DNA from: a bacterium
Lineage (GTDB): Bacteria; UBA4055
NCBI GenBank assembly: GCA_029559475.1
Contig: JAKQBN010000057.1
Location: 1-58,607 of the forward strand
Direction of reading: 5' to 3'
DNA: 58,607 nt
Part shown: in pieces, positions 2,343 through 19,002 of the stretch
How positions within the stretch are numbered: the stretch's first letter is position 1
How the letters are laid out: each line of letters starts with the position of its first letter
Notes under the pieces: generated by a model
The model's input: only the letters and a program-made list of their open reading frames with translations
Databases searched by the model: none
Told to the model about the DNA's origin: nothing
Position numbers and translations under genes: made by a program

Positions 2343-5300
2343 TTATTTATCTGCAACCTGACTCCAATGAACCGTGACAGGTTTGTATCTGTAAGGCTCA
2401 TATCCGTTATATTCATTTTCATTGTTGCACATTAGTTCAACCTGTCTGATGACGGTTTCGATCGCGCCTTTGGTCTGCTCGGGCGGATATTTATATTTTT
2501 TCAACAGTCTTTTTATATTCTTGCGCATATTGGCTCTGGCACTTTCTTTTACCTGCCAGTCAACCGTGATGCTGCTCCTGATGGATTCCGTGAGTTCGTG
2601 CGCGATCTGCTTTAATATTTCATCCGACATGAAATCTTTGACGGTCATATCCTGAGTGAGTGCATCGTAGAAAGCTTTTTCGTCTTCACTCAAGCCGAGA
2701 ACCTGACCTTCTTTGTGCATAGCATCAAAATCCTTCGCCATTTTGATCAGAGCTTCGATGACTTCAAGATTGGTGATTGCTTTATTTTGATACTGGAGCA
2801 AAGCTCTTTTGAGCTTTTCTGAAAACTTTTCGGATTGTACGAGATTTTTTCTTGCCGCAAGCTTGATACGACCGTCAATGAGCCTCTTTAAAAGTTCAAC
2901 GGCAAGGTTCTTTAATTTCATGTTCCTGACTTCTTCCAAAAACTCGTCTGACATGATAGACAATTCAGGGCGTCCTAAGCCTGTTCCATCAAGAATGTCG
3001 ATCACTTCCTCAGAAACTATTGAATTCGAGACCATCTGCTTCATTCGTGCGTTTATTTCTTCGAAAGTAAGTTTTTTCTTCTTAATAAGATCATCCGTCT
3101 CGAGCTTGACTATGCTTGCTTTTACGGCTTTGAAATAGCTTACTTCAAAATCAATCTGCCTTCCTTCCTTCGTGGCTGAACATAATCCGTGAGATTTTGC
3201 GAGTTCAATAGTAAATTTCATGAAATCGAGTTTGACATTTTCGCCATGTCCGAAAATATGGTTCATTCCGCCGATTATAGCATGAATTCTGTCTCTGTCG
3301 CTCCCCTTGATCTTCGAAATGTAATCATAACCATGAAACATTCCTTTGACGATCTCATATTTTTCGAGCATTACCGCGATTGCCTGAGCAGTATCTATCC
3401 CGACTTCTTTTTTATCACTGTCTGTATATTCTTTTAACGCTTTCTTTAAAGGTTCCGCGATTCCGATGTAATCAACTACCAGTCCGGCCTCCTTGTCCTT
3501 AAAAACCCTGTTTACGCGGGCAATCGCCTGCATCAGGTTATGACCTTTCATCGGCTTGTCAATGTAGATCGCGTTCAGCGAAGGCACATCAAAGCCTGTC
3601 AGCCACATATCGCGGACTAATACAAGCTTCAGTTCGTCTTTTACATCCTTGAACCTTTTTGCCAGATCATCCCTGTCGGGTTTATTATGTACATGTTTCT
3701 GCCATTCGGCAGGATCGGACGCGCTTCCGGTCATCACTATTTTTATTTTTCCTTTGTCTTTATCTTCGCTGTGCCAGTCCGGCCTTAATTTTATTATCTC
3801 GTTATAAAGATCAATGCAGATCCTTCTGCTCATACAGACTACCATTGCCTTACCGAACATATTTTTCTGTCTTGCTTCAAAATGGTCAACTATATCTTCC
3901 GCAAGCTGCTTTACCCTCGGCATTGCTCCGACGACCGCTTCAAGTCTCCCCCACTTCGATTTGAGCTTGTTTCTCGTATATTCTTCATGCCCTTCTGTGA
4001 GTTCATCTATTTCATCGTCAAGTTCATCAAAGTTGATCGAATCGTCAAGATTGAGCTTAATTATTCTGTTCTCGTAATATATTTTGACCGTACTTTTATC
4101 TTCAACCGCTCTTGTCATATCATAGATATCAATGTAATTTCCGAATACGGCAGGAGTGGATTTGTCTTCAAATTCAATAGGCGTTCCAGTGAATCCTATA
4201 AAACTCGCATTGGGCAGAGCCTCCCGCATATATTTAGCGTAACCGTATTTTATTGCACCCGAATCTTTCGTCACACTTTTTAAACCGTACTGGCTTCTGT
4301 GAGCTTCATCGGCTATGACAATCACATTTCGTCTCGTGCACAGAACAGGCATAGTATCCTCGTCCTCGCCCGGCGTGAATTTCTGAATCGTAGTAAAAAG
4401 AACTCCGCCGCTTTCCCTGTCGAGCATTTCCCTTAAAGTCCGTCTTGAATCCGCCTGAATAGGAATTTGCCTTAAAATATCCGCCGACTTTGAAAAGGTG
4501 GAAAACAACTGCTGATCGAGATCGTTCCTGTCGGTTAAAAATATCAGAGTAGGATTATCCAGCTCTCTGATCAGCCCGCCGGCATAGAACACCATCAGCA
4601 GACTTTTACCCGACCCTTGAGTATGCCAGATCACGCCTATCTTTCTGTCCCCCGTCTCACTTATAGCTTTTTTCGTGCTTAAAATAGCTTTCTTCACCCC
4701 GAAATACTGATGATAGCCCGTCATTATCTTAATATAGCTATCCTTATCATCCGCCTGAAACAATATCGAACTTCTAAGAATATCCAAAAGCCTTTCCCTG
4801 TCAAACAAACCTCTTATCAGTGTATCGTACTGCGGAACCGTAACAGGCTCGATATTCACACCGTCAACCGTCCTCCACATCTTGAACCATTCCTGATTTG
4901 AAGTTACAGTACCAACTTTCGCATTTATCCCGTCAGAAATAATGCTGAACGCGTTGTAATTAAAAAGTGTCGGAATATCAGACTGATAAGTCTTAATCTG
5001 ATTATAAGCCTTCTCTGTCGTAGCTTCCTCAACGCTGGCTGACTTAAGCTCAATCACAGAAAAAGGGATCCCGTTCACAAAAACCACAAGATCCGGCCTC
5101 CTGTCGTGCTTCTCAATCACAGTGAACTGATTTACAACCAGAAAATTATTATTACAAATATCAGCAGTATCGAACAAATAAACTTTCTTATGCTTTTCCG
5201 CACCATAATCACGAAATGAAACATCAATACCGTCAGTCACAAATTTATGAAAAGTCTTATTGTTAATAAGCATAGACGGAGAATCAAGATGAAGAACCTT

Positions 5301-5516
5301 CTTCACAGCCTCATTTATCGCTTCATCAGGCACACCGGCATTTATCCTCTTAAGACCTGACACCAGCCTGTCCTTTAAAACAACATCAAGATAACTCTCA
5401 CGCTCTTTGAACATGCCGTCCGGCGAAATATCCGGCCCAAACTTATATTCATAGCCAAGAGATTCGAATATCTCGATACAACTCTTCTCTAAACCGTCTT
5501 CCGTAAAATAATTCAT
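2343..5516 (-). CDS. hsdR: type I restriction endonuclease subunit R (HsdR)
   Basis: The 1057-residue product is the translocase/nuclease subunit of a type I restriction-modification enzyme. Visible features in order are a PD-(D/E)xK nuclease domain at about residues 135-160 ([10 protein letters not shown]... VIELKSA), Walker A ([11 protein letters not shown], near 300), a DEAH box ([11 protein letters not shown], near 400), FTGTP, and the superfamily 2 motif VI ([10 protein letters not shown]). The C-terminal helical part that contacts the methylase core is present. Its ATG overlaps the stop codon of the PIN gene by one base (TAATG), so it is translationally coupled to the cargo. It closes the operon that begins with hsdM. 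Nothing in the sequence suggests inactivation. Confidence 0.95.
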
Positions 5517-6055
5517 TATGCAATAACGAGTTTGTTATTGGCTGTGAGGATATCAATATCTGCACTTCTAAAATCAATGTCATTGGTAAGAAGTATAAAA
5601 TTATTTTCTTTGCATATTTCAAGTATAACTTTGTCAGAAAAATCCATTTGATCAATAATCATAAGCTTGGCTAAATCATCTTTTGTAAATAACTTTCCTA
5701 CGAATTCGAAGCGTGTTAAGATAGTATTTTTAAACAAACTATAAATTTCTTCAATTGTATCTTGACCAGCCTGACTGTCTCTATATGCTTTTTTCTCTAA
5801 TTTGTAATTCTTATGCTTTTCTTTATATTTCTCATACTCAGTAGTGAACGATCTGTTAAAAACCTCAGACATTACTGTCAAATCTATCATTATATTGTTG
5901 CCATTATCCATTAGTTTTTTGAAAACGGTAGCATATATAGTTTCGTAAACTTCTTTGCCTGTTGGCCAAAAAAGATAGATAATTATATTCGCATCAAAAA
6001 ATATTTGCCTTCCTTTCAATTCAGGGATTCTATCATGACTGTATTTTACACTCAT
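5516..6055 (-). CDS. PIN-domain protein (putative RNase effector of a GHKL/STAS-like/PIN module)
   Basis: The 179-residue product has a PIN-like nuclease fold signature: Asp21 in IFFDANIII, Glu64 in [10 protein letters not shown], Asp141 in the DFSDKVI segment and Asp159/Asp161 in LLTNDIDF. These are the four acidic positions that bind metal in VapC-type RNases. I chose the ATG at 6055 because GGGGAGAAG lies just upstream and the preceding gene ends at 6057; the longer frame back to 6163 would overlap that gene by over 100 bp. The gene overlaps hsdR by one base. The family assignment is good; RNA cleavage, and control by the two upstream proteins, are inference. Confidence 0.8.
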
Positions 6056-6056
6056 T

Positions 6057-6410
6057 TTACTTCTCCCCAAGTATTTCATCAATTGACTTTCTAAGCCTCT
6101 CCTCGGGATCCTTGTAGAATACTTTTGCGGTATCAGTAACTCTTTTAATCCTTTTAGCATCATCAGGAGCTATATCCTTGACTTCCATGCTAGATCTTAT
6201 TTTGTCCTCAGGATAATCTCTATAAAGCTGACCTACCGCTGTGTTTAGAAAAGCGGTTGTGATCATTTCAATGTTTTGAAATGACAATGATATTCTTTTG
6301 TTTTCATCAAAACCTTTTTTTATCTTTTCGTAAACTTTTTGCCCATCTTCAGCTTCGATGCATAGTTGACTACCTACGATATTGTATATGAACAGTTCTA
6401 TTGTTTCCAT
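6057..6410 (-). CDS. STAS-like DUF4325 domain protein
   Basis: The 117-residue product resembles the STAS-like DUF4325 family, small proteins commonly found beside GHKL ATPases. Residues 36-75 (RISLSFQNIEMITTAFLNTAVGQLY) match the typical beta-helix pattern in which a STAS protein presents Thr/Ser residues at the start of a helix. It follows the ATPase gene by 8 bp, with an AGGAG ribosome site that overlaps the ATPase stop, and precedes the PIN gene by one base. STAS/GHKL pairs work as partner-switching modules in sigma-factor control. Whether this pair does so here is inference. The family call rests on pattern and context only. Confidence 0.65.
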   Translation of the reverse strand: METIELFIYNIVGSQLCIEAEDGQKVYEKIKKGFDENKRISLSFQNIEMITTAFLNTAVGQLYRDYPEDKIRSSMEVKDIAPDDAKRIKRVTDTAKVFYKDPEERLRKSIDEILGEK

Positions 6411-6418
6411 ATTTTCTC

Positions 6419-7291
6419 CTAGAATAAATCGTTATTGTTTATTTCACCTATTAATGAATAAGAAGCGTCATCATCCGTTCTTACGCTGATATTAATAATT
6501 GACCCCGGGAAACTAGTTGGGAAATCATAGTCTTTTTCTCCGGTTTCATCGAGTAGATAAAACCCATTGTCACTTACAATCTGTAATTTACCTTTGTTCA
6601 ATTTGATAAATTCAATAAGTATCGCTAGCCCTATTCCGCCTGAGACATCGCCTTTTGTTGAATTTTTATCCTTTATTGCCCATCTAATGGCTTGATTGGC
6701 ATTAAAATGTCTTCCAAAAGGTTCTAATGCGGAATTTACTACATTCTTAAATCCCCTACCTGTATCAACAAAAGTAAATTCAATTTTATTTTTAGCAGGA
6801 AACAATTGACCGCAAGTATATACAAATTTGGTATTACTATGAATTTGAGCATTGACATACAGCTCATAAATTGATTCAGTGATCTTCTTTTTTAAAGGCT
6901 GACTCATTTCAGGCAATTCTGGTCTATTTATTAACTCACCGAAAATATAGTTATTAAAAAACCTTCCGTCAGTAGGTTTAATTTTTAAGTATTTTATTGT
7001 TGTATGCCTGTCGTCGATTTCAATATCATGCCCATAGTATGATAAAAAACCATTCCTAAGAAGGAGATTTTTAATTTCAACATCTTTGATTACAAAATTA
7101 ATAGTATTCAAATTTTCCATCAACAAATCGGATACACTACCTAAGACGGCCGCCATGTTCCCGCCGAACCAATTCTCTATATGAACATTTATAGTCTGAA
7201 AAAAACCATCCTTGTAATAATCGTAAAAATCAATTATCTGCTTATAACTTTTATATCCGTTGTCAATATTTTCAAGCTTGTAATCTGACAT
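6419..7291 (-). CDS. GHKL (histidine kinase-like) ATP-binding protein
   Basis: The 290-residue product has a complete C-terminal GHKL ATPase domain: N-box E143-x3-N147 (ELYVNAQIHS), G1 box D176-x-G178-x-G180 (VDTGRGF) and G2 box GGIGLAI at 218-224. There is no dimerisation/phosphoacceptor His domain and no membrane segment, so it looks like a soluble anti-sigma-type or MORC-like ATPase rather than a sensor kinase. The N-terminal 130 residues are not recognised. It heads a tight three-gene set with DUF4325 and PIN genes, and a TATAATG element at 7315-7320 may give the set its own promoter inside the restriction locus. Confidence 0.8.
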   Translation of the reverse strand: MSDYKLENIDNGYKSYKQIIDFYDYYKDGFFQTINVHIENWFGGNMAAVLGSVSDLLMENLNTINFVIKDVEIKNLLLRNGFLSYYGHDIEIDDRHTTIKYLKIKPTDGRFFNNYIFGELINRPELPEMSQPLKKKITESIYELYVNAQIHSNTKFVYTCGQLFPAKNKIEFTFVDTGRGFKNVVNSALEPFGRHFNANQAIRWAIKDKNSTKGDVSGGIGLAILIEFIKLNKGKLQIVSDNGFYLLDETGEKDYDFPTSFPGSIINISVRTDDDASYSLIGEINNNDLF

Positions 7292-7314
7292 TCATTTCAT
7301 CCTTTCAAATCCGC

Positions 7315-7320
7315 ATTATA
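7315..7320 (-). promoter_or_regulatory. possible internal -10 element for the GHKL/DUF4325/PIN/hsdR genes
   Basis: A perfect TATAAT followed by G sits 24 bp upstream of the GHKL ATG on the minus strand. The -35 region is only a T-rich stretch (TTTTTG, 16 bp away), so this is a weak call. It would let the last four genes be transcribed independently of the hsdM promoter. Confidence 0.35.
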
Positions 7321-7369
7321 AATTTAACTCAAAATACAAAAAAAATAAAGTCTTAATAATGGATTCATC

Positions 7370-8572
7370 TCACTTCCCGCAGCATTTTTTATATTTCTTC
7401 CCGCTCCCGCACGGGCAGGGGTCGTTTCTTCCCATTTTAACATCGTTTTTAAACGGCAGAGGAGTCTGATTTCTATACCTCGTTTGAAGCTCGAATATAA
7501 CTGAATTCAGGTTTCTTAAAGGAGTGTTCTCGCTTATCCTTCCTTCTGCCTCTTCATAACCCTTAAAGAAATCTTCAGCAACCTGACCGTTATGGGCATA
7601 ATAATCCGCTATTTTAAACTCTATATTAAATCTTTCTTTCATATCGGCTCGATGCTGCCATAAATCACACCCTTTGCAGAAACCTGCAGCCCACGGCTGA
7701 ACAGCTTCAATATTATCTTCGCTCTCAATAAGCTGAACTTTGCTCCCGAGCAGATCCGCATTTCTTTCAACCTTATCATAAATCCCGAGCAAAGCATTAT
7801 AAACAAAAAGCGCAGCTTCGGTCGAATCGTAAATCGGATCTTCGTATCCTTCCCAGAGCTTATCCATCCAGACGGAAGGCTTGATCATAACAGGAGAACA
7901 AGCCAGAGATGACATAAAACCGTGCACGAACTCAGGCTTCATATCATATTTCAAAATATCATTCAGAGCTTTATTCAAATCGGGATATTTGTTTCCCATT
8001 TTGTGAACCGAATGCTTGTACAGATCGCTCACAAGAAACGATATAAGCACGGCTGGATTCTTCTCTTTGATCTTATCCTCGAAACCACCAATTTTATCCT
8101 TCGCATCTCCTGTCAAACTTGTAACTCTTTCGCTATTGTTAAATATATGAATAAAAGCAAGATTACTTAGCAATTCTGTATCTGATTTCAGGATGTTTGT
8201 GTCCCATAACTTTGTCCCGTATAAAAACCCGTCACTCCATTTTTTCGCATCTTCTCTTATCAATTTCGCAGGATCTTTCGAGATCATAATATGCGGCAGA
8301 TAATCACCATCCAGCAGACAGTAGGTAACATCGTCATAAGCCTGAAGAACCGCATCTTGTACATCCTGCAAATCTTCGTCATCAAGAACATTACCGCTGC
8401 CGTGTTCACTCTTAAAAAAATGTGCAGGCCAAATTTCCCAATCGAGTGGCGACGGAGCGCACGCAACAGCCGTAATATATCCGTGAATATAATCCGCATC
8501 AAAATCACCCGCGCCTTTTTCCTTCAAAAACGCTTCTACATCCTCAAAAATCGTTTTATCATCGTTTGTCAT
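7370..8572 (-). CDS. tandem UPF0149 (YecA-like) protein with C-terminal SEC-C zinc motif
   Basis: The 400-residue product contains two related halves, about residues 10-150 and 185-330. Each has the UPF0149 hallmark ([18 protein letters not shown] and [17 protein letters not shown]). The last 22 residues form a classic SEC-C motif ([16 protein letters not shown]) that binds zinc and, in SecA, SecB. The single-domain relative YecA is common in proteobacteria and poorly understood. A duplicated form of this length inside a restriction locus is uncommon as far as I know. The gene is 59 bp downstream of the TIR-STAND gene and 78 bp upstream of the GHKL gene. Function is unknown; a role in handling secreted or nascent proteins is only suggested by the SEC-C motif. 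Confidence 0.75.
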
Positions 8573-8631
8573 TTTTTGTCCTATATTAAGTAGTTACGAA
8601 CCCGTCAAGACAATTTGAGGGTTTATTTGTT

Positions 8632-11199
8632 TCATTGATCGTTGCTCTTGTTTTCAATTTGAATTAGTTTATTTGTAGGAATCCCCAACTTCTGTTCTAT
8701 TCTCTGTTTGTCCTTATATTCTATATGATGGAGCATGCAATGGTGTACAATCATATATCTCACTACTCTCCTTGCTGTTTCTGAAAAATCGTCATTTTTT
8801 AAACGATCGAAGATTTCTTCAACATTTAAATTTTTATTATACCACATTAAAATTCCATGCCTAATTAAGAAAACGACAGGAGTGTCGTTTTCAGTATTGA
8901 TTTTTTCTAATAATTCATACAACTTATCAGAACCAAGAGAATGAACTGTTTTGTCAATCAACCCACCTATAAAAGCAAAATTCATATTCCAGAAAAAATC
9001 TGTTGCCAGTTTCTTTAATTTATCTTCATTTGCATTTTTAATTCCAGGCAAAGACTTAAGTAGTTTATTTTGGAGAAAATCTACTACTTCTGATTGACTA
9101 TCATCATTTTTTATTATTTCTATAAATGATGACAAAATTCTTAATTGTAGATTCATTGATGAAAGAAATATTGATTCAATTTTTTCTTTCTTAAATGATC
9201 CTACCCTATTTTTTAATATACGCCCTAGAACTTCAACAGTTTTGAGACTTTTTCTTAAATTTATAATTATGTCATTCTCTATTTCACTAGGAATTTGAAT
9301 ATCGTCGTCATATTCTTTTCTAATAACTTCAATTTGATCTTCTGCTTTAAGTTTATCTTTTCTTGCTTTCTCGGAGTTAAGTACTTTTGGCAAACTTGCC
9401 TCTATAATAGATTCCAGTTTTTCATCGAAAAAATCAAGTTCTTCACTTGAGAGTGTAGCTGGTTTGAATGAATCATAAAGAGTAATAGAAATTCTTTCAA
9501 TCTCGTCTATTACATAAAGACTTTTGCTATGATGTGACATAAATATTGCTATATATGCGTTTTCATCTTTGTGTAAGTTATTTATTATTTCATCGACAAG
9601 AATTTTATTATCATCTAGATTTTCTGCTAGAAATTTTGCTACGAAATAATAGTAAAGATAATGATAATTGAACGAGTAATTACCAAAGCTGTCTTTGATA
9701 ATAATTTTAATTCTTTTTAAAACATTTAACAGAACATTTTTGTGAATAGTGAAAATATATTCTTCGGAATACCTTTTTATAAATTCATCAAATTCATTTT
9801 CTGAAATCTCGATTATCTTATTTGAATGGAAATGATAAGCAATTTCAGACAAAAAGTTAATGTAAGTATCTATGTCATCATTTTTAACACCTTCTTTTCT
9901 TAGATACATATAAATTAATGCCTGATAACAATAACCTTGTGAAGTAATTTCCTGATCCAACGGTCGGTCAAGAGCTTCATATGTACTTATAATTGATAGA
10001 ATGAAAAACGGATAAGATGGCATAATCCCGTTACTCATTATTTTTCCTAAAGTACTGTTTACTACTTCGTTTGAAGAATCTAGTCTTTTATAAAATTCGT
10101 TTAGATTTGTAGTCTTATTATCACTCAAGTGTATCCATTTTTCAATCAATTCGTTTCTCATTGAAGGTGTGAATTCATTCACAGTATATTTTTTATAACC
10201 AGCAGTAAGTTCCTCGTCCCTAAAATTAAGTGAGAAAATATCATCTACTATTATAACACTCGTTGCATACAGCTTGAGATCATCAACATGCTTTTCTTTT
10301 TTCTTTGCGAAATGGAAATCATCTATGATCGGTATAATATATTTTCTGTCAATGTCCTCAAATTTAATTTCATCATACTGCTCATTAAATGAATCCTTGA
10401 TTCTATTATTTATCAGACCTTCGAACTGTCCGTTTCTATCTTGCACATAAACCGGCAAAAAATTTCTTTTCTTTAATTCTGTATATATTCTTTTACAAAT
10501 TGTTGTCTTACCGGATTGGTCTTGACCGGCTATAAGTAACTTAGTTCCAATGATTATTTCATTGATGATCTCATTTAATTTTACTTTCTTCTCTTTGTCT
10601 TTTAACTCATCATATTTTGTTAAATACGGACATGTGTAAATATCATCGAGAAATACTTCGTTTTTATTTGAATGAGCTTTAGACAATAATTCAGCACTAT
10701 TTAGGAATTCAATAGTATGGTTTGAATTTTCTATAGATAGTATTCTCTGATAAGCTTTTGCAGATTTCTTTATGCCTTCATAAACATCCATCCATCCATC
10801 GACCTGGTTTAAATAATAAGAAATCGGTTTGCCGTCAGTTGGTAATGCAAGAAATATATTTAACTCTTCTACATCTAACCAACCGCATGGTGACAGAATA
10901 ATCGGAATAATTATAATTCCTTTCTTTTTGTAAAGCTCATAACCTTTTCTAATTTCTTTTATGCATGAAGATGAGTCCAGGCAATTCGCAGAGATGAAAA
11001 AGCATATTATGTCGGCATTATCGAGATTATTATCAATATTATCCTGAAATTCCTGTCCAGCGAATAATCTCCTGTCATACCATTCTTTTATTAATCCGCT
11101 TGACTTTAAAGGTGCAATGAATTTTACAAATTCCTTTATATTGTCTTCATCCAAATGAGAGTAACTAATAAACAAGTTTAAAGGTTCGGCCTTTTTCAT
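8632..11199 (-). CDS. TIR-domain STAND NTPase (NLR-like immune sensor)
   Basis: The 855-residue product begins with a TIR domain at about 7-150 (LNLFISYSHLDEDN, then WYDRRLFAGQEF). Glu82 in the SSCIKEIRKG segment is placed like the catalytic Glu of NAD-cleaving TIR domains. A P-loop NTPase follows, with Walker A GQDQSGKTT at about 225-233 and Walker B IIPIIDDFHF near 290, then a long alpha-helical C-terminal half rich in Lys, Glu, Asp and Asn. This order matches bacterial STAND/NLR-like sensors in which a helical C-terminus detects a phage product and the TIR domain depletes NAD+. It overlaps the Abi_C gene by 4 bp (ATGA). It is markedly AT-rich compared with the housekeeping genes, which suggests horizontal acquisition. 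Confidence 0.82.
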   Translation of the reverse strand: MKKAEPLNLFISYSHLDEDNIKEFVKFIAPLKSSGLIKEWYDRRLFAGQEFQDNIDNNLDNADIICFFISANCLDSSSCIKEIRKGYELYKKKGIIIIPIILSPCGWLDVEELNIFLALPTDGKPISYYLNQVDGWMDVYEGIKKSAKAYQRILSIENSNHTIEFLNSAELLSKAHSNKNEVFLDDIYTCPYLTKYDELKDKEKKVKLNEIINEIIIGTKLLIAGQDQSGKTTICKRIYTELKKRNFLPVYVQDRNGQFEGLINNRIKDSFNEQYDEIKFEDIDRKYIIPIIDDFHFAKKKEKHVDDLKLYATSVIIVDDIFSLNFRDEELTAGYKKYTVNEFTPSMRNELIEKWIHLSDNKTTNLNEFYKRLDSSNEVVNSTLGKIMSNGIMPSYPFFILSIISTYEALDRPLDQEITSQGYCYQALIYMYLRKEGVKNDDIDTYINFLSEIAYHFHSNKIIEISENEFDEFIKRYSEEYIFTIHKNVLLNVLKRIKIIIKDSFGNYSFNYHYLYYYFVAKFLAENLDDNKILVDEIINNLHKDENAYIAIFMSHHSKSLYVIDEIERISITLYDSFKPATLSSEELDFFDEKLESIIEASLPKVLNSEKARKDKLKAEDQIEVIRKEYDDDIQIPSEIENDIIINLRKSLKTVEVLGRILKNRVGSFKKEKIESIFLSSMNLQLRILSSFIEIIKNDDSQSEVVDFLQNKLLKSLPGIKNANEDKLKKLATDFFWNMNFAFIGGLIDKTVHSLGSDKLYELLEKINTENDTPVVFLIRHGILMWYNKNLNVEEIFDRLKNDDFSETARRVVRYMIVHHCMLHHIEYKDKQRIEQKLGIPTNKLIQIENKSNDQ

Positions 11200-12005
11200 A
11201 ATTTCCCCTTCTCTTTCATTTTTATTTGATGTTCATAGCTATCTAATAGAAATTCACAAATTGTATTGGCACTATTAATAGCAAGTCTCGCATGATGCCT
11301 TGAAGGTTCATATTTTCTTGCATGTGCGTCACTCAACTCATTTCTTAAATTTGAGATTCCATTTACTATACTATTTAACCCGCTTAATATTTGCTTAAAT
11401 CCTTCAATGTCGTAATTAGCAGCTTGTAAATTCATTGCTTTTGCTATTTCATTATATAGTTTTAATAAATCCCCTTTATTCTTGATTTCATGCTCATATC
11501 TACTTGCTAATTCCATGAGGACTTGTTCAACTAAGGATCTTGCGTTAGTAATTGCGCCCGAGTAGTCTTTTCCTTCAATTTTCATATTAGATTTTAGGAT
11601 TTGTTCAGAAATGAATTTATGGGATAATATATCATCATTTAACTTTTTTGATATACCTGTTTCGGCAATATTAATTCTCTTATTTAACATTTTTTCAAAG
11701 TACTTCATACATTCTTCGTACTCTTCTTTCTTCTCTTGAAACAATTCATCACTGGATATTTTCTTAAAATACCTAAGCAAGTCTATGTTTAGTTTTGATA
11801 CTACTTCTTCAGTATATTTATTCCATACATATCTTAATCGATTAGCTTTTGATTCTCCGTAAGCATCAAATCCTGCTGCATAAACATCTAATCCAATTGA
11901 CTTGATAATAAACTTTCTCATGTCATTATTTGAGAAATTAAGTACAACTCCTCTATCAATAAGTAATGCTTCAAGATTCATTTCAATAATAACATCTATG
12001 TTCAT
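11196..12005 (-). CDS. abortive-infection family protein (Abi_C-like C-terminus)
   Basis: The 269-residue product ends with a helical block at about 215-258 (LRNELSDAHARKYEPSRHHARLA, then NSANTICEFLLD is the core pattern). This resembles the Abi_C domain of abortive-infection proteins, in which Arg, Asn and His are conserved. The N-terminal 130 residues are not recognised, and there are no membrane segments. The gene overlaps the end of hsdS and the start of the TIR-STAND gene by 4 bp each (ATGA in both), so it is translationally coupled on both sides. It may be the partner or regulator of the TIR-STAND protein; this is inference from position. Confidence 0.65.
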   Translation of the reverse strand: MNIDVIIEMNLEALLIDRGVVLNFSNNDMRKFIIKSIGLDVYAAGFDAYGESKANRLRYVWNKYTEEVVSKLNIDLLRYFKKISSDELFQEKKEEYEECMKYFEKMLNKRINIAETGISKKLNDDILSHKFISEQILKSNMKIEGKDYSGAITNARSLVEQVLMELASRYEHEIKNKGDLLKLYNEIAKAMNLQAANYDIEGFKQILSGLNSIVNGISNLRNELSDAHARKYEPSRHHARLAINSANTICEFLLDSYEHQIKMKEKGKL

Positions 12006-12835
12006 AAATTCACCCTTATTTCCCCACTCATCAGCTTTGGTAGCAACGCGTCTCTTGTTTTTGTTAGTGATTGGTTTTCAAGCTGATTATTTAATATTTT
12101 ATCATATAACAGTTTTACATTTTTTGAAAATCCTGATAATGCTACTTTACTTGGAAGTAAGATTGGCATTGATTTAATTATTTTTGAATTAACTGCTATT
12201 GCTATTGAAGAAGTACTGCCCAAACTTGTATAATTGAAATTCATCAGGTATAGATAAATATATTCTTTTGTGATTTCATTTTCATGCTTCATATTAAAAT
12301 GAGCTATTGCTTCGTTAGTAACCATTTCTTCATTTACAATCCCGACTCTACCGACTGTAAGTTTAAAACTTAAAACAACAGAACCTTTAGGCACAATCTT
12401 TATATTAAATTTCTTTATCGCATCCGATGTTAAATACTCTGATGTACTCAATATAAATGCACCAGAATTTCCTAAATCTTTAATTGATAACCATTTTGTA
12501 TCCTTTGGGTCTAACGAGAACCATTCTTTCTCATTTCTCGGTGGCGTTTTTCCAATATTTATTTCAAACAAATCATCCGCTACCTTCACACTCCACCCTT
12601 CGGGGATTTCTCCGAGTTCACTTTGGATCATTTTTCCGCCGGAGCTTTTGTACGGATTTCCGTTTTCATCGGGGAATTCAAAATCAACGAACCATTGTTT
12701 GAATATAGCCTGAGCTATTTCTTCAAGATTTTTATTCATTTTGGTATTAAGCTCGATTTTATCATCAAGCGAAGAAAGGATTTCTGCGATCCGCTTTTGT
12801 TCGGGTAGTGGCGGGAGATTTATTTGATATCTCAT
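12002..12835 (-). CDS. hsdS: type I specificity subunit HsdS, C-terminal part (after an in-frame TGA)
   Basis: This 277-residue frame carries the central conserved helix of HsdS (LPPLPEQKRIAEILSSLDDK, residues 7-26), the second target-recognition domain at about 75-225, and the distal conserved helix (LTKTRDALLPKLMSGEI). It is exactly in frame with the upstream 128-codon part: only TGA and five further codons (Asp Lys Asp Ala Ile) separate the two. An ATG at 12835 could restart translation, but no convincing ribosome site precedes it. The likely ancestral gene is 12002-13237. It is either a nonsense-mutated pseudogene or a split HsdS whose parts may assemble, as truncated HsdS proteins of some type I systems can. 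Confidence 0.85.
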   Translation of the reverse strand: MRYQINLPPLPEQKRIAEILSSLDDKIELNTKMNKNLEEIAQAIFKQWFVDFEFPDENGNPYKSSGGKMIQSELGEIPEGWSVKVADDLFEINIGKTPPRNEKEWFSLDPKDTKWLSIKDLGNSGAFILSTSEYLTSDAIKKFNIKIVPKGSVVLSFKLTVGRVGIVNEEMVTNEAIAHFNMKHENEITKEYIYLYLMNFNYTSLGSTSSIAIAVNSKIIKSMPILLPSKVALSGFSKNVKLLYDKILNNQLENQSLTKTRDALLPKLMSGEIRVNL

Positions 12836-12850
12836 AATTGCGTCTTTATC

Positions 12851-13237
12851 TCATCTAGGCATTTTTGTGCCTTTAGAAGATGCGACTGTGTAATCAAAGA
12901 ATTTATCGTTTGATAATATGTAATAAAGATACTTGTTAAATGTTTTAGAATTTCTACCTCTAAAAACAAGCACATCAGCTGAACAGCCGCCGTCAAAGCT
13001 TGAATAATAAAGTTTTTTAAAGTATGTTCTAATGTTAGAGAAAAGAATGTCCCCGCTTGTGAAAGCATTAACCTTACCTGTCGAAGGTAATTTTGAAGAA
13101 GTTTCTATTCCACCTCTGTTTGGCAGCATATTCTCAGTAGAAATATAGTTAGCCTCTGTAAGCTCTTTTATATCAATTTTATTTGTAGCAAAATCAGCCA
13201 CTTCGCCTAACTTATATTCTTCCCATTCATTATTCAA
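12851..13237 (-). CDS. hsdS: type I specificity subunit HsdS, N-terminal part (TRD1), ends at in-frame TGA
   Basis: The 128-residue product is the first target-recognition domain of HsdS (EEYKLGEVADF at the start, SKGTKMPR at the end). Translation stops at TGA 12851-12853, exactly where other HsdS proteins continue from the GT(K)MPR motif into the central conserved helix. The start is a TTG at 13237, supported by GGAGG at 13247-13251 with 9-bp spacing. This ribosome site lies inside a 21-bp repeat shared with the end of the zinc-ribbon gene. Without the central helix, this fragment alone should not bind HsdM normally. Confidence 0.82.
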   Translation of the reverse strand: MNNEWEEYKLGEVADFATNKIDIKELTEANYISTENMLPNRGGIETSSKLPSTGKVNAFTSGDILFSNIRTYFKKLYYSSFDGGCSADVLVFRGRNSKTFNKYLYYILSNDKFFDYTVASSKGTKMPR

Positions 13238-13314
13238 AATCTATATCCTCCGGTTCGGGTTCTTCTTATTCCTTTGATCTCCTCTTTCAAGTAGATGTGG
13301 TTAAGCTTCATCAT
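13234..13314 (-). CDS. doubtful 26-codon ORF coupling the KilA-N gene to hsdS
   Basis: A short frame (MMKLNHIYLKEEIKGIRR and eight more residues) starts at an ATG that overlaps the KilA-N stop codon and ends with a TGA that overlaps the TTG start of hsdS. Such overlaps could pass ribosomes from one gene to the next. The frame includes the 21-bp repeat read out of its original phase, so it may be only a by-product of the insertion. I see no homology. Confidence 0.2.
   Translation of the reverse strand: MMKLNHIYLKEEIKGIRRTRTGGYRF
13245..13265. repeat. 21-bp direct repeat, copy 2 (upstream of hsdS)
   Basis: The same 21 bases occur at 14169-14189 (core CCTCCGGTTCGGGTTCTTC as read on the plus strand). 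On the minus strand both copies read as codons for Glu-Glu-Pro-Glu-Pro-Glu-Asp. Copy 1 is the real C-terminus of the zinc-ribbon protein. Here the frame would go on Ile-Asp-Phe-Glu-stop, overlapping the hsdS TTG start. The copy also supplies the hsdS ribosome site. The two copies bracket the KilA-N gene. Confidence 0.85.
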
Positions 13315-14138
13315 TTCTCTCCGGCTTCCAGATGTTTCGTAAAATCCTGAATAAGTATTTTCATCTGTGATATTGCAATCCTGTTTAGCTGCCTGAGTCT
13401 TTCCTGCTGTTCAAGTCCCTGCTCAATAAAAACAGCATTAAGATTTTCAAGGTTGGCTAGGCAAACCAGTTGAGATACATTGGCATAATCTCGTATATTT
13501 CCTTGTTTGTCAGGATTTTCTTTCCGCCACTGCAACGCTGTTTTACCGAATATCGACATATTAAGCACATCAGCTTCGTTGGCATATACAAAACTTATCT
13601 GTTGAGCAGTAAGATGCTCCGGAATCAGATTTTCTTTAATTGCATCCGTGTGAATTCGGTAGTTTATCTTTGTAAGGCTTCGTTTTATATTCCAGTCAAG
13701 CTCTTTGGACTGCTGATTTTTTAGGTATTGAAATTCCTTGATTAGATAAAATTTAAACTCAACTGAAACCCATGACGCAAATTCTAGAGCAATGTCAACA
13801 TGAGCATAAGTGCCTCCATACTTTCCTGATTTTGACTGCAACCCGATTGCATTTGTTGATTCGATCCATTTTTGCGGTGATAATACAAAATGATTATAAC
13901 CCGCTTCATTTCTAAACAGGTCGAATTCGACCTGTTTGAAATTTGGATTATGAAGCTTTTCCCAAAGACCGAGTAGCTCTATTGTATTCTTGGTTCGAAT
14001 CCAGTTTTTTATAATATCTCTCGGAGCATCGGGATTTTTGTATTTTGCAATATCAGTAATGCAAATATAATCTTCCTGTTGTGTTTTTACAAAATTTACT
14101 TCTATACCTTTCACTTCAATTTTATCACTTTTTTTCAT
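13311..14138 (-). CDS. KilA-N domain protein
   Basis: The 275-residue product has a KilA-N-type N-terminal domain at about residues 8-115 (ICITDIAKYKNPDAP, NWIRTKNTIELLGLW, YAHVDIALEFASWVS). This fold is common in phage antirepressors and DNA-binding proteins. The C-terminal half is helical and unassigned. Genes of this type are often seen between hsdM and hsdS in type I loci; their role is not settled, with modulation of the system or phage defence both suggested. The start at 14138 lies inside a copy of the hsdM-end repeat, which provides GGATTTGAG as the ribosome site. Both flanks carry repeats, pointing to insertion as a unit. Confidence 0.8.
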   Translation of the reverse strand: MKKSDKIEVKGIEVNFVKTQQEDYICITDIAKYKNPDAPRDIIKNWIRTKNTIELLGLWEKLHNPNFKQVEFDLFRNEAGYNHFVLSPQKWIESTNAIGLQSKSGKYGGTYAHVDIALEFASWVSVEFKFYLIKEFQYLKNQQSKELDWNIKRSLTKINYRIHTDAIKENLIPEHLTAQQISFVYANEADVLNMSIFGKTALQWRKENPDKQGNIRDYANVSQLVCLANLENLNAVFIEQGLEQQERLRQLNRIAISQMKILIQDFTKHLEAGEK

Positions 14139-14155
14139 ATCTCAAATCCTATGCT
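14129..14155. repeat. hsdM-tail direct repeat, copy C (start of KilA-N gene)
   Basis: These 27 bases match copy A at the real hsdM stop (18976-19002) with one mismatch. On the minus strand the core reads GGATTTGAGATATGAAAAA. It spans the KilA-N start codon and ribosome site. Copy B is at 15906-15924. Confidence 0.85.
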
Positions 14156-14165
14156 ATTTTTGTTT

Positions 14166-14489
14166 TTAATCCTCCGGTTCGGGTTCTTCGACATCTTTTC
14201 CGCAGTTTGGGCAAATGTATATTTTATCCTTTTCCGTTTCTTTGAATCTGAGCCCTGTATCATTGTGTGAATACTCTCCGATATATGTTATAAGTTTGCC
14301 ATAGACTTCGACATCTTCTTTTAATCCGCAGGCCGGGCATTCGAGAAGTTCTCTGTCATTGGTGAATAATCCCAATGCCTTAGCCTGTTCCTGAAGTTCT
14401 GCTATTCTTTTTGCCGCTTCTAGTATTTCCGGCGGTATTTTAAATTCTTTCTCCGAACTTTTCTCCGACATTTTCTGTAAACTTTTCAT
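14166..14489 (-). CDS. small two-CxxC zinc-ribbon protein
   Basis: The 107-residue product has CPAC at about 57 and CPNC near 95, a treble-clef or rubredoxin-like zinc-binding pattern, and an acidic tail (EEPEPED). Its first 14 residues (MKSLQKMSEKSSEK) repeat the Ser-Glu-Lys-Ser linker of the protein encoded just upstream, as if the two were cut from one fusion. Its ATG overlaps the upstream stop by 4 bp (ATGA). I do not recognise a specific function; co-translation suggests it works with the AlbA/GHKL protein. Confidence 0.65.
   Translation of the reverse strand: MKSLQKMSEKSSEKEFKIPPEILEAAKRIAELQEQAKALGLFTNDRELLECPACGLKEDVEVYGKLITYIGEYSHNDTGLRFKETEKDKIYICPNCGKDVEEPEPED
14169..14189. repeat. 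21-bp direct repeat, copy 1 (3' end of zinc-ribbon gene)
   Basis: It is identical to 13245-13265. It encodes the EEPEPED C-terminus of the zinc-ribbon protein; in this copy the next codon is a stop (TAA), whereas copy 2 would continue Ile-Asp-Phe-Glu. Confidence 0.85.
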
Positions 14490-15910
14490 TCTATTATTTC
14501 CCAGTGACCTCCATGTGCAGGTCCGATATGAATAACTTTTTTCGCTTCTTTAAGCTTTTTAATAATCTTTAGAGTTCCCCTTTTTGTTATACCTAAAACT
14601 GCTGCAATTTCTTCGGTTGTGATTTTATTATTTTCCTTAATTAAACCTAAAATTATTTCATCCTTTTTTGGTGAACTTTTTGGTGAACTTTTTGGTGAAC
14701 TTTTCTCCGACATTTTCTCCGAACTTTTCTCCGACTCTTGCTGTTCAGTGTAATTTTTCTTTATGAATGACACTCTGAATGCGATTCCGGGTTCTGTCCA
14801 CTGCATTTGAATTTCGGGGTAATCGCTGAGGTTCTCGGAAATGAGCTTGAGTCCGTTTCCCCACTGTTCAATTATACCAAGTTTTTTGAATACGGGTGCG
14901 AGGGCTACATTCCTGATGTCGGACTGACCTGCATCCATATTGTCAAAGTCAACGGAAGGGAGAAGTTTGCCCGGGCTTGTTATTTCGATCTTATCGTCGA
15001 ATACCGCGATCTTTATATCTTTTCCGATCAAAGAATAATCCCTGTGTATGACAGCGTTTCGGATAACCTCTCTTAAAGCTGTTACGGGGTATTCCCACCT
15101 GTCTTTTCTGTAAACTCCTTCATATTCAGAACCCTGAGAGATATGCCGCAGAACGAACTGATATGCCTGTTCCGGCTGTATGCTCAATGGTGTTTCGATT
15201 GACTTCTGATCTATAAAATCACCCGGCGTTATGCCTTTGAATCTCGCGCACTCTATTTTTGCATAAGGGAACATCTGAGACCGTAATTTATCGTCCGAAA
15301 GTAGGATCAGAGCGTGTGTCGGAAATTGCACTCCCCGTTCGGTATGGAGTAAATTTAATTTATCAAGAACTGTGGTGTTGAATTCTTCATTCGTTATTTC
15401 TTCAAACTGCTTGGTGAAAGATCCCAGGCTGATCTGTTCCAGCTCTTTTTTGAGAACAGGCATTGAGTCATAAGAAATATTCTTCCTGTTGAGTTCCAAT
15501 CCTGCAATAATACTGTCGTCCGCAAGCCTGTTTGATGATCCGACACGGATGTAAGTACCGTTTTTAATGCTTTTTGCCTTTAAGTAGTAAGGCGGATTGC
15601 TGCCTTTATGAATTTTAACTACAAGAATATGTTTATCTTCATGCCTCAGAAAAAAGATTTCAGGCATAATGGCAGGTGAACAATTGTCATGTATCGAGCT
15701 GCTTATCTGCTCTTCATATTTGATCAGTAAAGATTCATCTATTCCTGTTATTTCTCTCGGATTGTCTTTAATCCCTATAAATATTTCACCGCCGGCATCG
15801 TTGGCAAAAGCAATTACCGTTTTGGTCAGATCTGAATTCGTCGGAAGCTCTTCTTTGAATTCAATCCTTCTGCCTTCAGGCTGAGTTATAATTTCAGTTA
15901 TTTTCTTCAT
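14486..15910 (-). CDS. Schlafen AlbA_2 / GHKL-type ATP-binding protein with C-terminal winged helix
   Basis: The 474-residue product has an N-terminal Schlafen AlbA_2 domain (RRIEFKEELPTNSD, then GGEIFIGIKD, residues 14-50). A divergent HATPase_c_4 region at about 270-365 follows (ALREVIRNAVIHRDYS, and WGNGLKLI), then a low-complexity Ser-Glu/Pro-Lys linker (about 390-415) and a winged helix (ITTEEIAAVLGITKRGTLKI). This architecture is a widespread putative transcriptional regulator often next to type I restriction genes. It starts inside copy B of the hsdM-tail repeat. The linker is encoded by 12-bp tandem repeats, so its length may vary between strains. Confidence 0.82.
   Translation of the reverse strand: MKKITEIITQPEGRRIEFKEELPTNSDLTKTVIAFANDAGGEIFIGIKDNPREITGIDESLLIKYEEQISSSIHDNCSPAIMPEIFFLRHEDKHILVVKIHKGSNPPYYLKAKSIKNGTYIRVGSSNRLADDSIIAGLELNRKNISYDSMPVLKKELEQISLGSFTKQFEEITNEEFNTTVLDKLNLLHTERGVQFPTHALILLSDDKLRSQMFPYAKIECARFKGITPGDFIDQKSIETPLSIQPEQAYQFVLRHISQGSEYEGVYRKDRWEYPVTALREVIRNAVIHRDYSLIGKDIKIAVFDDKIEITSPGKLLPSVDFDNMDAGQSDIRNVALAPVFKKLGIIEQWGNGLKLISENLSDYPEIQMQWTEPGIAFRVSFIKKNYTEQQESEKSSEKMSEKSSPKSSPKSSPKKDEIILGLIKENNKITTEEIAAVLGITKRGTLKIIKKLKEAKKVIHIGPAHGGHWEIIE
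14664..14737. repeat. 12-bp in-frame tandem repeats in the linker of the AlbA/GHKL gene
   Basis: Three perfect units of GGTGAACTTTTT type (encoding Ser-Ser-Pro-Lys) are followed by units containing CTCCGA (Ser-Glu-Lys). The period is a multiple of three, so gain or loss of units would change linker length without shifting the frame. A related segment recurs at 14450-14475 at the start of the zinc-ribbon gene. Confidence 0.8.
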
Positions 15911-15924
15911 ATCTCAAATCCTAT
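15906..15924. repeat. hsdM-tail direct repeat, copy B
   Basis: On the minus strand it reads ATAGGATTTGAGATATGAA, with the last ATG being the start of the AlbA/GHKL gene. It is 19 of 19 identical to part of copy C and shares GGATTTGAGATATGAA with copy A. It overlaps the stop codon (TAG) of the secreted-protein gene. Confidence 0.85.
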
Positions 15925-18900
15925 ATGTTACTGCTTGTTTTTTGAATAATCTTTTTCTTCGGTTCAGGTTTTATACTTTTCGCGTTTTCCGAGCTGGACA
16001 CTACATTATAGAATTTCTTTATGTCTGTGCCTATGGTTATGCTCCACTGGCTTTGAGAAACAGTTGCGAGATAATCAAAAGTTCCGTAAGGATCGTTTGA
16101 GCCGTAAATAAGATAAGAGTTCGCATTATACATATCGTCCCAGTTGATGGTAAGAATTCCGGAGTTTACGCTGATCGTAATATTAGAAGGACTGTCTGGA
16201 GTTATCACAGGAATATAATATTCATAGCAGCCCATATCAATGTTAGAACCGTACAGTCTGGGGTTTCCTGCCATGTCTGTCTGCGGTATATAAAGTGAAC
16301 CCAGAGTTTGTTCAGTTAAGCCCGGGTAGCCGGTGTCTTTGCACTGTGATATGCTTTGCAGTTCGTAAGTCCCCGAAACAAAGAGGGGATTTATGTCAAT
16401 ATTTCCTGAGTTACTGCCGTTATATGTAACACCAGTATTCAGCCCGAATCCGGCAATTCCGCCCTGTATATCATTATAGTAGAATGACGGGTCAGTAAAA
16501 TCGTCGTTCAGATACACCTGATGCAGCCCGTTACCGAAGATTATGTTATTTATGAATCTGGGATCCGAGTTACCGTCAAGGAAAACACCGATGCTGTCAT
16601 TGTCGGCTATCGTATTGTTGACGATATATTGAGGTGAACAGCCGGATATCTTAATGCCATGCCTGTTTCCAGTAATAAGGTTGCTGGATATAACTGGAGA
16701 CGAGTTGTCGATTATGATTCCGAATTCACTAGCATTCCCGAAAATACTGTTTGATACTATTAATTTTGAACCTCCTGTGATTCTCAAACAGGAGTTCTCA
16801 ATGTCGGATACTTTTATAAAATAAAAATTGGCAGTAGCCTCGCCATAAGAAGAAGTTTCACCTGCCAGCACATAACTTCCATCATTTGTCTTAGCTATAG
16901 AGTAGCAAATATCACTTCCCGGACCTCCGAAAGTCTTTGACCACAGTTCATTTCCGTTTGAATCTGTTTTTATCAAAAAAGCATCGGACAAGTAAGATGA
17001 TGTTGATCCGGTCATCAAGTAACCGCCGTCCTCAGTCTGTATTACGGAATTAGCACATAATCCTTTGTAAGTTTTTTTCCAAATTGTAATCCCGTAAGAA
17101 TCTGTTTTTATCAACACCGGAGATGAGCCTCTTTCACCGCAAATAATGTAGCCTCCATCCGCTGTTTGAATTATCGATTTTCCAGAATCTCCGCCAAGGT
17201 CTCTACTCCATAAATAAACCCCATCAGAATTTATTTTTTCCAAGATCGCGTCTCCAGTAGCTGTATAACACCCATCGCTTGTTTGGATCACGGAATTATA
17301 CCAAGAGGCAGATCCTGCATCCCATAGCATTTCTCCATCTGAATCAGTTTTCAAAATGTAAGATCCGCAGATCACATAACCTCCGTCTGCTGCTTGGATT
17401 ACAGAATTTCCCCATTCGTTTATAGGGCTATATGGTGCAGGAGTTAAATTCTTAGACCACAGTTCATTCCCGTTAGAATCTGTTTTAATTAGATATATAT
17501 CGCTTTCTGAATAATCGTTAAAGGATTTTGTGTCGCCGGCAATAATATAACAACCGTCTGTTGTTTTTGAAATTGAATATCCCTTGTCATAATCAGTACC
17601 CCCGTATGTTTTGGACCACAATTCATTACCATAAGAGTCTGTCTTTAACAGGTAAACATCTCCATAAGTTGAATAATCGAAATTATACCCGCATATTAAA
17701 AAACCTCCGTCATCTGCCTGAACACACTGCTGAGCGTTTGCTCCTATCGGATCTCCATAATTCTTAATGAACGCCGTCGATTCTGACCTTGTTTTTATTT
17801 CAGCATATAGTATTCTCGAACTGTCTGCGCTCGCAGAGTTGTGAAAGTCTATAGTCGTGTCTATAAACTTAACCGAATTACCCGGAATACCTGTAGCGTT
17901 CAGCCGTCCGTTTACATTAAGACCGTAAATTCCAATGTCATTAACTTTAACACCCGGCTCGATGGTAAGCGTGTTCGCCGTTTCAACATAAACGCTGTCG
18001 GATAATATGTACGGAGAATTTGCTTCGTACCATGTGCCGCTGACGCTGCCGGCTTGCACGAGAGTGCCTTTAATTGTAAAATACGGCGACAGGCCATAAA
18101 CTGAACTGAACATATTTGATTTTATTTTTATGCTGTAATCGGAACCCATAGTAAATGAGGGTTCGTAAATATTCCATCTGAATATTCCGTTTGACTGAGA
18201 TGTAAAAGTTTTTTTAATAACACTGCCTTTCCATAACTCGATTATGACATCTTCAGGTATGTTGTCGTTCCATGTAATGAGAGTGTCTGAGAGCATTTCA
18301 AGTACCGTTCCGCCAGTTGGAAAAGTCAGAGTAATATAGCCATCATCAATTAAGAAAGGTGAGCTTTCGTCAAATACCGAAGGATATATCTTTGAGGCTA
18401 TTTTGACAGTGTAATTCTTTCCATAAATGTCAACAGGAACGGTCCACAAGAACGATCCGTCGTTTGCCGCTGAAACTGCAATTGTATCTATTGGCGTTCC
18501 GGAGTCGTTTAGAGTTATAAGAAGGTCTTCTTGAAATCCCGTAGAATTCCATGTTATCTCGAACAAACTTCCTCTGGGGAGGCTTTCTCCACCTATTGGA
18601 GATTTTAGATCAATATTGCCGATGTTAACTGAAAAATATCCGTCCGAATAATCATAAGTAGTCGGTGTTAACGCGGAAGTTATTCTTATCTTATAGTTTG
18701 TTCCGTAAAGTTCGTTCGGTATGTCTGCAGTATATGAACCGTCGCTAGGGGTTAATGATACTACTGGAAGCAAAAACGATCCGTTCTGATAAAGGTCTAT
18801 TCTTACATCTCCTGAAATGTTGTCTTCCCACGTGATTTTGAACGAACTGCCTCTGTAAAGAGTCTCACCCCCATTCGGTGAAGTAACTGTAATGTAGCCG

Positions 18901-18950
18901 AACAGCGACATTGAGCATAGTGTTATAAACGATAAGACAATTTTTCTCAT
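15921..18950 (-). CDS. large secreted protein with Kre9-like, PQQ/kelch-like, beta-helix and FN3 regions
   Basis: The 1009-residue product has a signal peptide (MRKIVLSFITLCSMSLFG). Three Kre9/Knh1-like repeats follow at about 20-105, 108-200 and 203-295, each with (T/K)(S/F)P.GG..L followed by I(T)W(E/N/D). Next come about eight repeats of the KTDS.GN.LWSKT..G type (about 395-720), a right-handed beta-helix region (about 735-880), and an FN3-like domain (about 915-985). No sorting domain is obvious at the C-terminus, which is basic. Proteins of this style are exported adhesins or envelope proteins in FCB-type bacteria. Lying between hsdM and hsdS, flanked by direct repeats of the hsdM end, it is out of place and probably inserted there. 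Confidence 0.75.
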   Translation of the reverse strand: MRKIVLSFITLCSMSLFGYITVTSPNGGETLYRGSSFKITWEDNISGDVRIDLYQNGSFLLPVVSLTPSDGSYTADIPNELYGTNYKIRITSALTPTTYDYSDGYFSVNIGNIDLKSPIGGESLPRGSLFEITWNSTGFQEDLLITLNDSGTPIDTIAVSAANDGSFLWTVPVDIYGKNYTVKIASKIYPSVFDESSPFLIDDGYITLTFPTGGTVLEMLSDTLITWNDNIPEDVIIELWKGSVIKKTFTSQSNGIFRWNIYEPSFTMGSDYSIKIKSNMFSSVYGLSPYFTIKGTLVQAGSVSGTWYEANSPYILSDSVYVETANTLTIEPGVKVNDIGIYGLNVNGRLNATGIPGNSVKFIDTTIDFHNSASADSSRILYAEIKTRSESTAFIKNYGDPIGANAQQCVQADDGGFLICGYNFDYSTYGDVYLLKTDSYGNELWSKTYGGTDYDKGYSISKTTDGCYIIAGDTKSFNDYSESDIYLIKTDSNGNELWSKNLTPAPYSPINEWGNSVIQAADGGYVICGSYILKTDSDGEMLWDAGSASWYNSVIQTSDGCYTATGDAILEKINSDGVYLWSRDLGGDSGKSIIQTADGGYIICGERGSSPVLIKTDSYGITIWKKTYKGLCANSVIQTEDGGYLMTGSTSSYLSDAFLIKTDSNGNELWSKTFGGPGSDICYSIAKTNDGSYVLAGETSSYGEATANFYFIKVSDIENSCLRITGGSKLIVSNSIFGNASEFGIIIDNSSPVISSNLITGNRHGIKISGCSPQYIVNNTIADNDSIGVFLDGNSDPRFINNIIFGNGLHQVYLNDDFTDPSFYYNDIQGGIAGFGLNTGVTYNGSNSGNIDINPLFVSGTYELQSISQCKDTGYPGLTEQTLGSLYIPQTDMAGNPRLYGSNIDMGCYEYYIPVITPDSPSNITISVNSGILTINWDDMYNANSYLIYGSNDPYGTFDYLATVSQSQWSITIGTDIKKFYNVVSSSENAKSIKPEPKKKIIQKTSSNI

Positions 18951-18975
18951 TTTACTTTTCTCTTTTCAGTTTTAT

Positions 18976-19002
18976 TTTTTTTCATATCTCAAATCCAATG
19001 CT
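18976..19002. repeat. hsdM-tail direct repeat, copy A (original, end of hsdM)
   Basis: This is the genuine 3' end of hsdM (Ser-Ile-Gly-Phe-Glu-Ile-stop), where ATATGA joins the stop to an overlapping ATG. The ATG opens only a 12-codon frame ([12 protein letters not shown]) that ends on the start of the secreted-protein gene. These 12 codons resemble the start of the AlbA/GHKL gene, as if they were a remnant of it. Confidence 0.8.

Follow-up and report, generated by a model that had tools for sequence, protein, structure and literature searches.

Why does the 3′ end of hsdM recur at the starts of two other genes of the same restriction locus? The locus lies in a stretch of 58,607 nucleotides that was analyzed as a whole (the window), and its features are listed in Table 1. 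As in a type I restriction-modification locus, hsdR, hsdM, and hsdS are clustered. HsdM and the Methylase_S domains were identified with Pfam, and the putative hsdR gene is a 1057-aa open reading frame (ORF) at 2343-5516 that is HsdR-like by sequence and matches the HsdR-region stretches of related loci. A preliminary description of the window, made from its sequence, had named the genes correctly as encoding HsdM, an AlbA_2 plus HATPase_c_4 protein, KilA-N, and a secreted repeat protein between repeat copies A and B. hsdS is split by an in-frame TGA, and since both halves match Methylase_S, the system may be inactive or may use half-size specificity subunits. The interval between hsdS and hsdR (5516-12005) contains further defence-like genes. 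The first two encode Abi_C and TIR-nSTAND proteins, and those after them a UPF0149/SEC-C protein, a STAS-like protein with DUF4325, and a protein with weak likeness to PIN.

The hsdM end is indeed present three times. A sequence search with GGATTTGAGATATGA gave three exact copies on the minus strand, at 18982-18996, 15907-15921, and 14135-14149, that is, at the hsdM stop, at the start of the AlbA/GHKL gene, and at the start of KilA-N, as had been claimed. With one mismatch allowed, these were still the only sites in the whole genome of 2,284,255 bases. A genome-wide repeat family was thereby excluded, all three copies being at one locus. Of the 13 genomes of the phylum that were searched, the remaining 12 had no exact match to the 16-mer. 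Read directly from the sequence, copies A (AGCATTGGATTTGAGATATGAAAAAAA) and C are identical at 26 of 27 bp, which agrees with the single mismatch reported before, and copy B has 18 to 19 bp in common. An independent repeat search also grouped the three copies, as family D3.

Table 1. Features of the restriction locus in the window
Feature	Position	Strand	Evidence
hsdM, type I methyltransferase, 507 aa	18982..20505	-	PF02384 7.6e-112, PF12161 1.9e-25
Copy A, true hsdM 3′ end with overlapping ATG (ATATGA)	18976..19002	-	Sequence, repeat search
12-codon minicistron in the gap between hsdM and the secreted-protein gene; start within the hsdM stop, stop overlapping the next ATG	18947..18985	-	Sequence
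Secreted repeat protein (Kre9/KNH-type, beta-helix), inserted gene; TAG stop inside copy B	15921..18950	-	Sequence, Pfam
Copy B, hsdM-tail relic in the AlbA/GHKL start region	15906..15924	-	Sequence, repeat search
AlbA_2/GHKL gene, formerly hsdM neighbor	14486..15910	-	PF04326 7.8e-27, PF13749 1e-21; 3′ half also in L004
Zinc-ribbon-like ORF, 3′ end displaced by the KilA-N insert	14166..14489	-	Weak Pfam matches, all below cutoff
D6 left copy, 3′ end of the zinc-ribbon ORF	14169..14189	-	Repeat search
Inserted segment, 903 bp: copy C, KilA-N, and about 16 codons (MMKLNHIYLKEEIKGI) of a truncated following gene	13266..14168	-	Boundaries from D6
Copy C, hsdM-tail relic in the KilA-N start region, 26/27 bp to copy A	14129..14155	-	Sequence, repeat search
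KilA-N gene	13311..14138	-	PF04383 1.1e-20
D6 right copy, zinc-ribbon gene tail retained just before hsdS	13245..13265	-	Repeat search
hsdS, split by an in-frame TGA into 12851-13237 and 12002-12835	12002..13237	-	PF01420 in both halves

The 12 codons after copy A had been taken for a vestige of the AlbA start. This stretch is real but resembles the AlbA start no more than background does: with 435 gene starts as the background, P was 0.08 for the A-B comparison and 0.03 for A-C, and among A-rich MKK-type starts the figures were 6/31 and 3/31, respectively.

A second scar, missed in the preliminary description, was found by the repeat search in front of hsdS. Repeat D6 consists of 21 identical bp (GAAGAACCCGAACCGGAGGAT), one copy on each side of the segment that carries KilA-N. 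Without this segment, the zinc-ribbon frame would continue to a stop that overlaps the hsdS start, as read from the sequence. The repeat and the restored frame together argue that the incoming KilA-N fragment already bore an hsdM tail and that this fragment split an overlapping zinc-ribbon/hsdS pair. Since copy C is inside the insert, it came with the insert and not from the target. The SEKSSEK linker of the AlbA protein (14697-14729) is repeated at the start of the zinc-ribbon ORF (14455-14487; 91% over 33 nt), and this ORF may be an orphaned alternative C-terminal domain of an AlbA protein.

What such a relic of the hsdM tail could be is apparent from intact loci. In 43 of 48 intact adjacent pairs, the hsdS start precedes the hsdM stop; in TATGGCGGGTGAATGG, for example, hsdM reads Y-G-G-stop and hsdS reads M-A-G-E-W. 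In most relics the start codon of the next gene likewise lies inside the old hsdM frame, according to the alignments from which the extents of the relics were read. Since hsdS starts inside hsdM in intact pairs, the best reading of a relic is that it represents the start region of the downstream gene and stayed with that gene when an insertion displaced it; we infer that selection for translation preserved it.

To see how often relics recur, we searched the 9 kb downstream of hsdM for matches to its final 49 nt in 133 nonredundant hsdM loci. A tail score of at least 15 was reached in 6.0%, compared to 0.9% with interior hsdM stretches and 0.6% across loci. The locus's own HsdM C-terminal peptide was found downstream, at 0.5 or more of the self score, in 11 of the 133 loci but for only 2 of 3177 interior control peptides. 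A tail profile gave scores of at least 12 in 14/133 loci, several of these matches being HsdR N-termini or other ORFs, versus 0/133 on the opposite strand and 0.10 when the columns were permuted. The HsdR N-terminal LEEA.LEIL.ELGYE resembles the HsdM C-terminal LE..I..NL..LGYE closely enough to trigger this profile in many loci (e.g., L005, L006, L019, and L046). An automatic scan of gene starts (profile score > 5) picked up relics at 8 of the 65 hsdS genes that lie behind cargo. Among 583 other starts it flagged three, in L082, L026, and L251 (the first of its two), and all three are true relics.

The sequence extended 1.5 kb or more past hsdM in 125 type I loci, 66 of them with cargo between hsdM and hsdS and 48 with an adjacent pair. 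Relics at the start of the next gene were present in about 17 of the 66 cargo loci (26%) but in only 1 of the 48 adjacent pairs (Fisher p = 3e-4); this comparison was reached with several methods plus inspection and involved judgement, whereas the counts given above were automatic. The relics accepted are those of L023, L026, L034, L075, L076, L082, L232, L243, L245, L251 (two), L254, L258, L261, L262, L263, L275, L284, and the window (two). The adjacent-pair locus is L082, with the order hsdM-hsdS-tail-hsdS; L251 has three tails in one locus. The cargo after hsdM belongs to many families, and hsdM is thus a conserved anchor followed by variable genes. In L187 (10620-12080), HsdS carries an in-frame fusion to an MNT-type nucleotidyltransferase domain, and the gene immediately before it is a HEPN-like substrate-binding gene (Pfam, for L187 only); similar ORFs are present in L258 and L057; the fusion may be a toxin-antitoxin-like pair joined to the specificity subunit.

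Whose tail is retained? The relic of L284 matches the intact hsdM-hsdS junction of another genome at 49 of 54 positions but its own hsdM tail at only 21 of 54. The same tendency was seen in L254 (46 versus 33 matches), L258 (43 versus 37), L261 (41 versus 31), and L243 (40 versus 32), whereas the relics of L232 and L262, to which their own hsdM is about as close as any other, are counterevidence. Since relics are mostly nearer to intact junctions of other genomes, the present hsdM end was probably imported together with the cargo.

A near before/after pair is provided by L034 and L032, whose HsdM proteins are 96% identical. In L032, RhuM directly overlaps hsdM. In L034, the order is hsdM, a DUF1016 gene truncated within its nuclease domain, a 49-nt hsdM tail, and RhuM. 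A second locus in the genome of L032 has an hsdM with a large internal deletion and DUF1016 directly after it. The tail of this second hsdM has two diagnostic bases in common with the own tail of L034, and the L034 relic carries the alternatives of L032 at both. The tail sharing fits displacement between a before and an after state but is suggestive only, as the tracking comprises two diagnostic bases, with close identities (45 and 44 versus 43 of 48), and the differences along hsdM in this single pair gave no clear breakpoint. Strains with one segment missing and a single repeat left had been proposed as a check; L032 (hsdM-RhuM) and L034 (hsdM-DUF1016-relic-RhuM) provide this by analogy, though not within the locus of the window. 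In L229 (G062:C30:83796-84015), hsdM has a large internal deletion that joins the first ~42 and the last ~36 residues, and a DUF1016 gene follows directly.

The relatives of the window's HsdM point to "Candidatus Delongbacteria," and the HsdM of L004 is 96% identical to it, the two hsdM genes having 211 differences over ~1500 nt. In L004, hsdM is followed by a DUF1016/YhcG nuclease gene and then by the 3′ half of the window's AlbA gene; the DUF1016 join is inside AlbA, which is truncated. The L004 hsdM ends in AGCATAGGATTTGAGAT; it shares ATAGG with copies B and C, in place of the ATTGG of the window's own hsdM. The search of related genomes suggested earlier thus did find different cargo at the same place, and this, together with the recurrence in other phyla, bears out the claim that the repeats mark insertion boundaries. 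A before/after pair was not found within the phylum of the window, where the hsdM is shared by L004/G003 only, with the contig ending inside AlbA; the contigs of G007 and G009 end inside hsdM.

The closest homologues of KilA-N found (L098, 63%; L069, 61%) are both in hsdM loci of other phyla, and the KilA-N gene of L098 directly overlaps an hsdM. Homologues within the phylum are mostly stand-alone genes with their own upstream sequence, and the KilA-N tree did not place the window's copy. The stand-alone genes L173, L175, L176, L177, L182, and L184 share a sequence similar to GGTCACTATTTGATACTTTGC..TTGC-TAAAAA in their upstream regions, which may serve as a promoter or operator.

We consider it probable that relics arise by displacement, in which the old neighbor keeps the hsdM tail when cargo is wedged in. 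The copies would then stand at two gene starts because both genes once adjoined hsdM and kept its end, which held their start signal. In type I operons, the ribosome-binding site of the gene after hsdM, and often its start codon, normally sits in the last hsdM codons. If foreign DNA with a different hsdM end and a new gene recombined in, the old downstream gene would stay functional only if the join landed in the old hsdM tail, upstream of its start region. The product would be a new hsdM, a new cargo gene, and a relic of 15 to 75 bp of the older tail fused to the displaced gene; a join further downstream would truncate that gene, as seen for AlbA in L004. The window would have started as an hsdM-AlbA-zinc ribbon-hsdS operon, into which the secreted-protein gene was presumably inserted between hsdM and AlbA, before or after the KilA-N insertion. 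KilA-N would have been the immediate neighbor of hsdM in its source locus and have brought its own hsdM tail; its insertion between the zinc-ribbon gene and hsdS would have left hsdS with a 21-bp zinc-ribbon tail as the start region. The likely route is recombination that is anchored by homology in hsdM at one end and completed by illegitimate joining at the other, in successive steps.

Could the repeats instead be duplicated targets? A break at the junction of hsdM and the next gene, repaired with foreign DNA, would leave the local tail copied on both sides with no donor hsdM involved. The perfect 21-bp repeat around the KilA-N segment looks like such a duplication, and copies A and B are compatible with one. 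Moreover, copies A, B, and C are so alike that the window alone cannot separate a duplicated target from an imported tail, which counts against displacement. But copy C was brought by the insert in which it lies, and relics at other loci mostly diverge strongly from the local hsdM tail while matching junctions of other genomes. We therefore regard target duplication as unlikely.

The preliminary description had seen the repeats as portable expression cassette ends. They do contain the next gene's ribosome site and its overlapping start, but portability in a mechanistic sense is not supported, and they are better read as scars, i.e., start regions that would have been retained under selection. 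In a cassette system, the hsdM 3′ end would be an attachment site, and cargo would be mobilized, as circles or cassettes, through site-specific or short-repeat recombination. Separate genes are in fact bordered by repeated hsdM ends, up to the three tails of L251, and gene 3′ ends serve as integrase targets. However, Pfam revealed no recombinase in the hsdM-hsdS interval, nor was one present among the proteins scanned in the hsdM-hsdR stretch. Furthermore, the relics vary in length and sequence between loci and usually match the intact junctions of other genomes better than their own hsdM. Inserts also end inside genes (the truncated DUF1016 of L034, AlbA in L004, and the ORF after KilA-N), and units are not bordered by the same site on both sides: the KilA-N insert is flanked by an hsdM tail on the left and, on the right, by the tail of an unrelated gene, the zinc-ribbon gene. 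A cassette system is, accordingly, improbable. It is just as doubtful that type I operons in many phyla take up defence genes serially at an hsdM 3′ end that acts as a favored site of integration, by a dedicated or at least strongly biased mechanism.

The relatives of the window and most loci and relic cases are from metagenome assemblies, and relics could be artefacts of binning and assembly. This is hardly credible: relics are found inside contigs of up to 3.46 Mb (L261, the strongest exception to the metagenome fragments), repeats of 15 to 50 bp are below the usual assembly word length, and the copies have private differences. Seventeen annotated closed-plasmid loci served as an assembly-proof set and gave no new relic case, a result that weighs against displacement. 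No relic was detected in the eight that were scanned (Acetobacter, Rhizobium, cyanobacteria, and Cetobacterium), most of which have cargo, and in the nine inspected by eye, hsdM and hsdS are mostly adjacent. Chance or convergence of strong start regions that are merely alike, to which the purine-rich, ribosome-site-like stretches in all copies might point, is already refuted by an exact 15-mer that occurs three times in 2.28 Mb, always at this locus, and by interior, cross-locus, opposite-strand, and permuted controls nearly without matches.

Defence genes often sit inside restriction operons, and their entry and order are usually unreadable. If displacement is correct, hsdM-tail relics are seams that tell which genes once adjoined hsdM and which arrived later, and they would reveal that hsdM ends were swapped together with cargo. 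They suggest a simple rule for operons of overlapping genes, namely, that the downstream gene survives an insertion only if the overlap is duplicated. Relics might be of further use in locating gene boundaries and start sites in loci of this kind.

A search of the open-access literature yielded no description of hsdM-tail relics, but related arrangements are known. In the hsd loci of Campylobacter, M-linked and R-linked ORFs (mlo and rlo; Miller et al. 2005, cited in PMC5183652) are unrelated genes inserted between hsd genes, as here; in contrast to our locus, the part of that account given in PMC5183652 does not mention relics of the hsdM 3′ end. Unrelated genes inside hsd loci occur outside Campylobacter as well (PMC12255303). 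The hsdM and hsdS genes of EcoKI overlap by 1 nt and are translationally coupled (PMC3510504). There, too, the start of the downstream gene is located in or at the end of hsdM, but EcoKI is an intact pair, whereas here the junction persists as a relic after displacement. Stepwise displacement of modules is known from T6SS effector-immunity, Rhs, and CDI loci, for which homology-facilitated illegitimate recombination was proposed (PMC5361080). Like these, the loci described here have a conserved upstream anchor, and incoming modules would push older downstream parts into an array in which the displaced parts keep a piece of the older anchor, the hsdM-tail relic. In contrast to these, hsdM serves as the anchor here, the displaced elements are whole cargo genes and hsdS instead of toxin ends or immunity genes, and the overlapping start region stays attached to the displaced gene.
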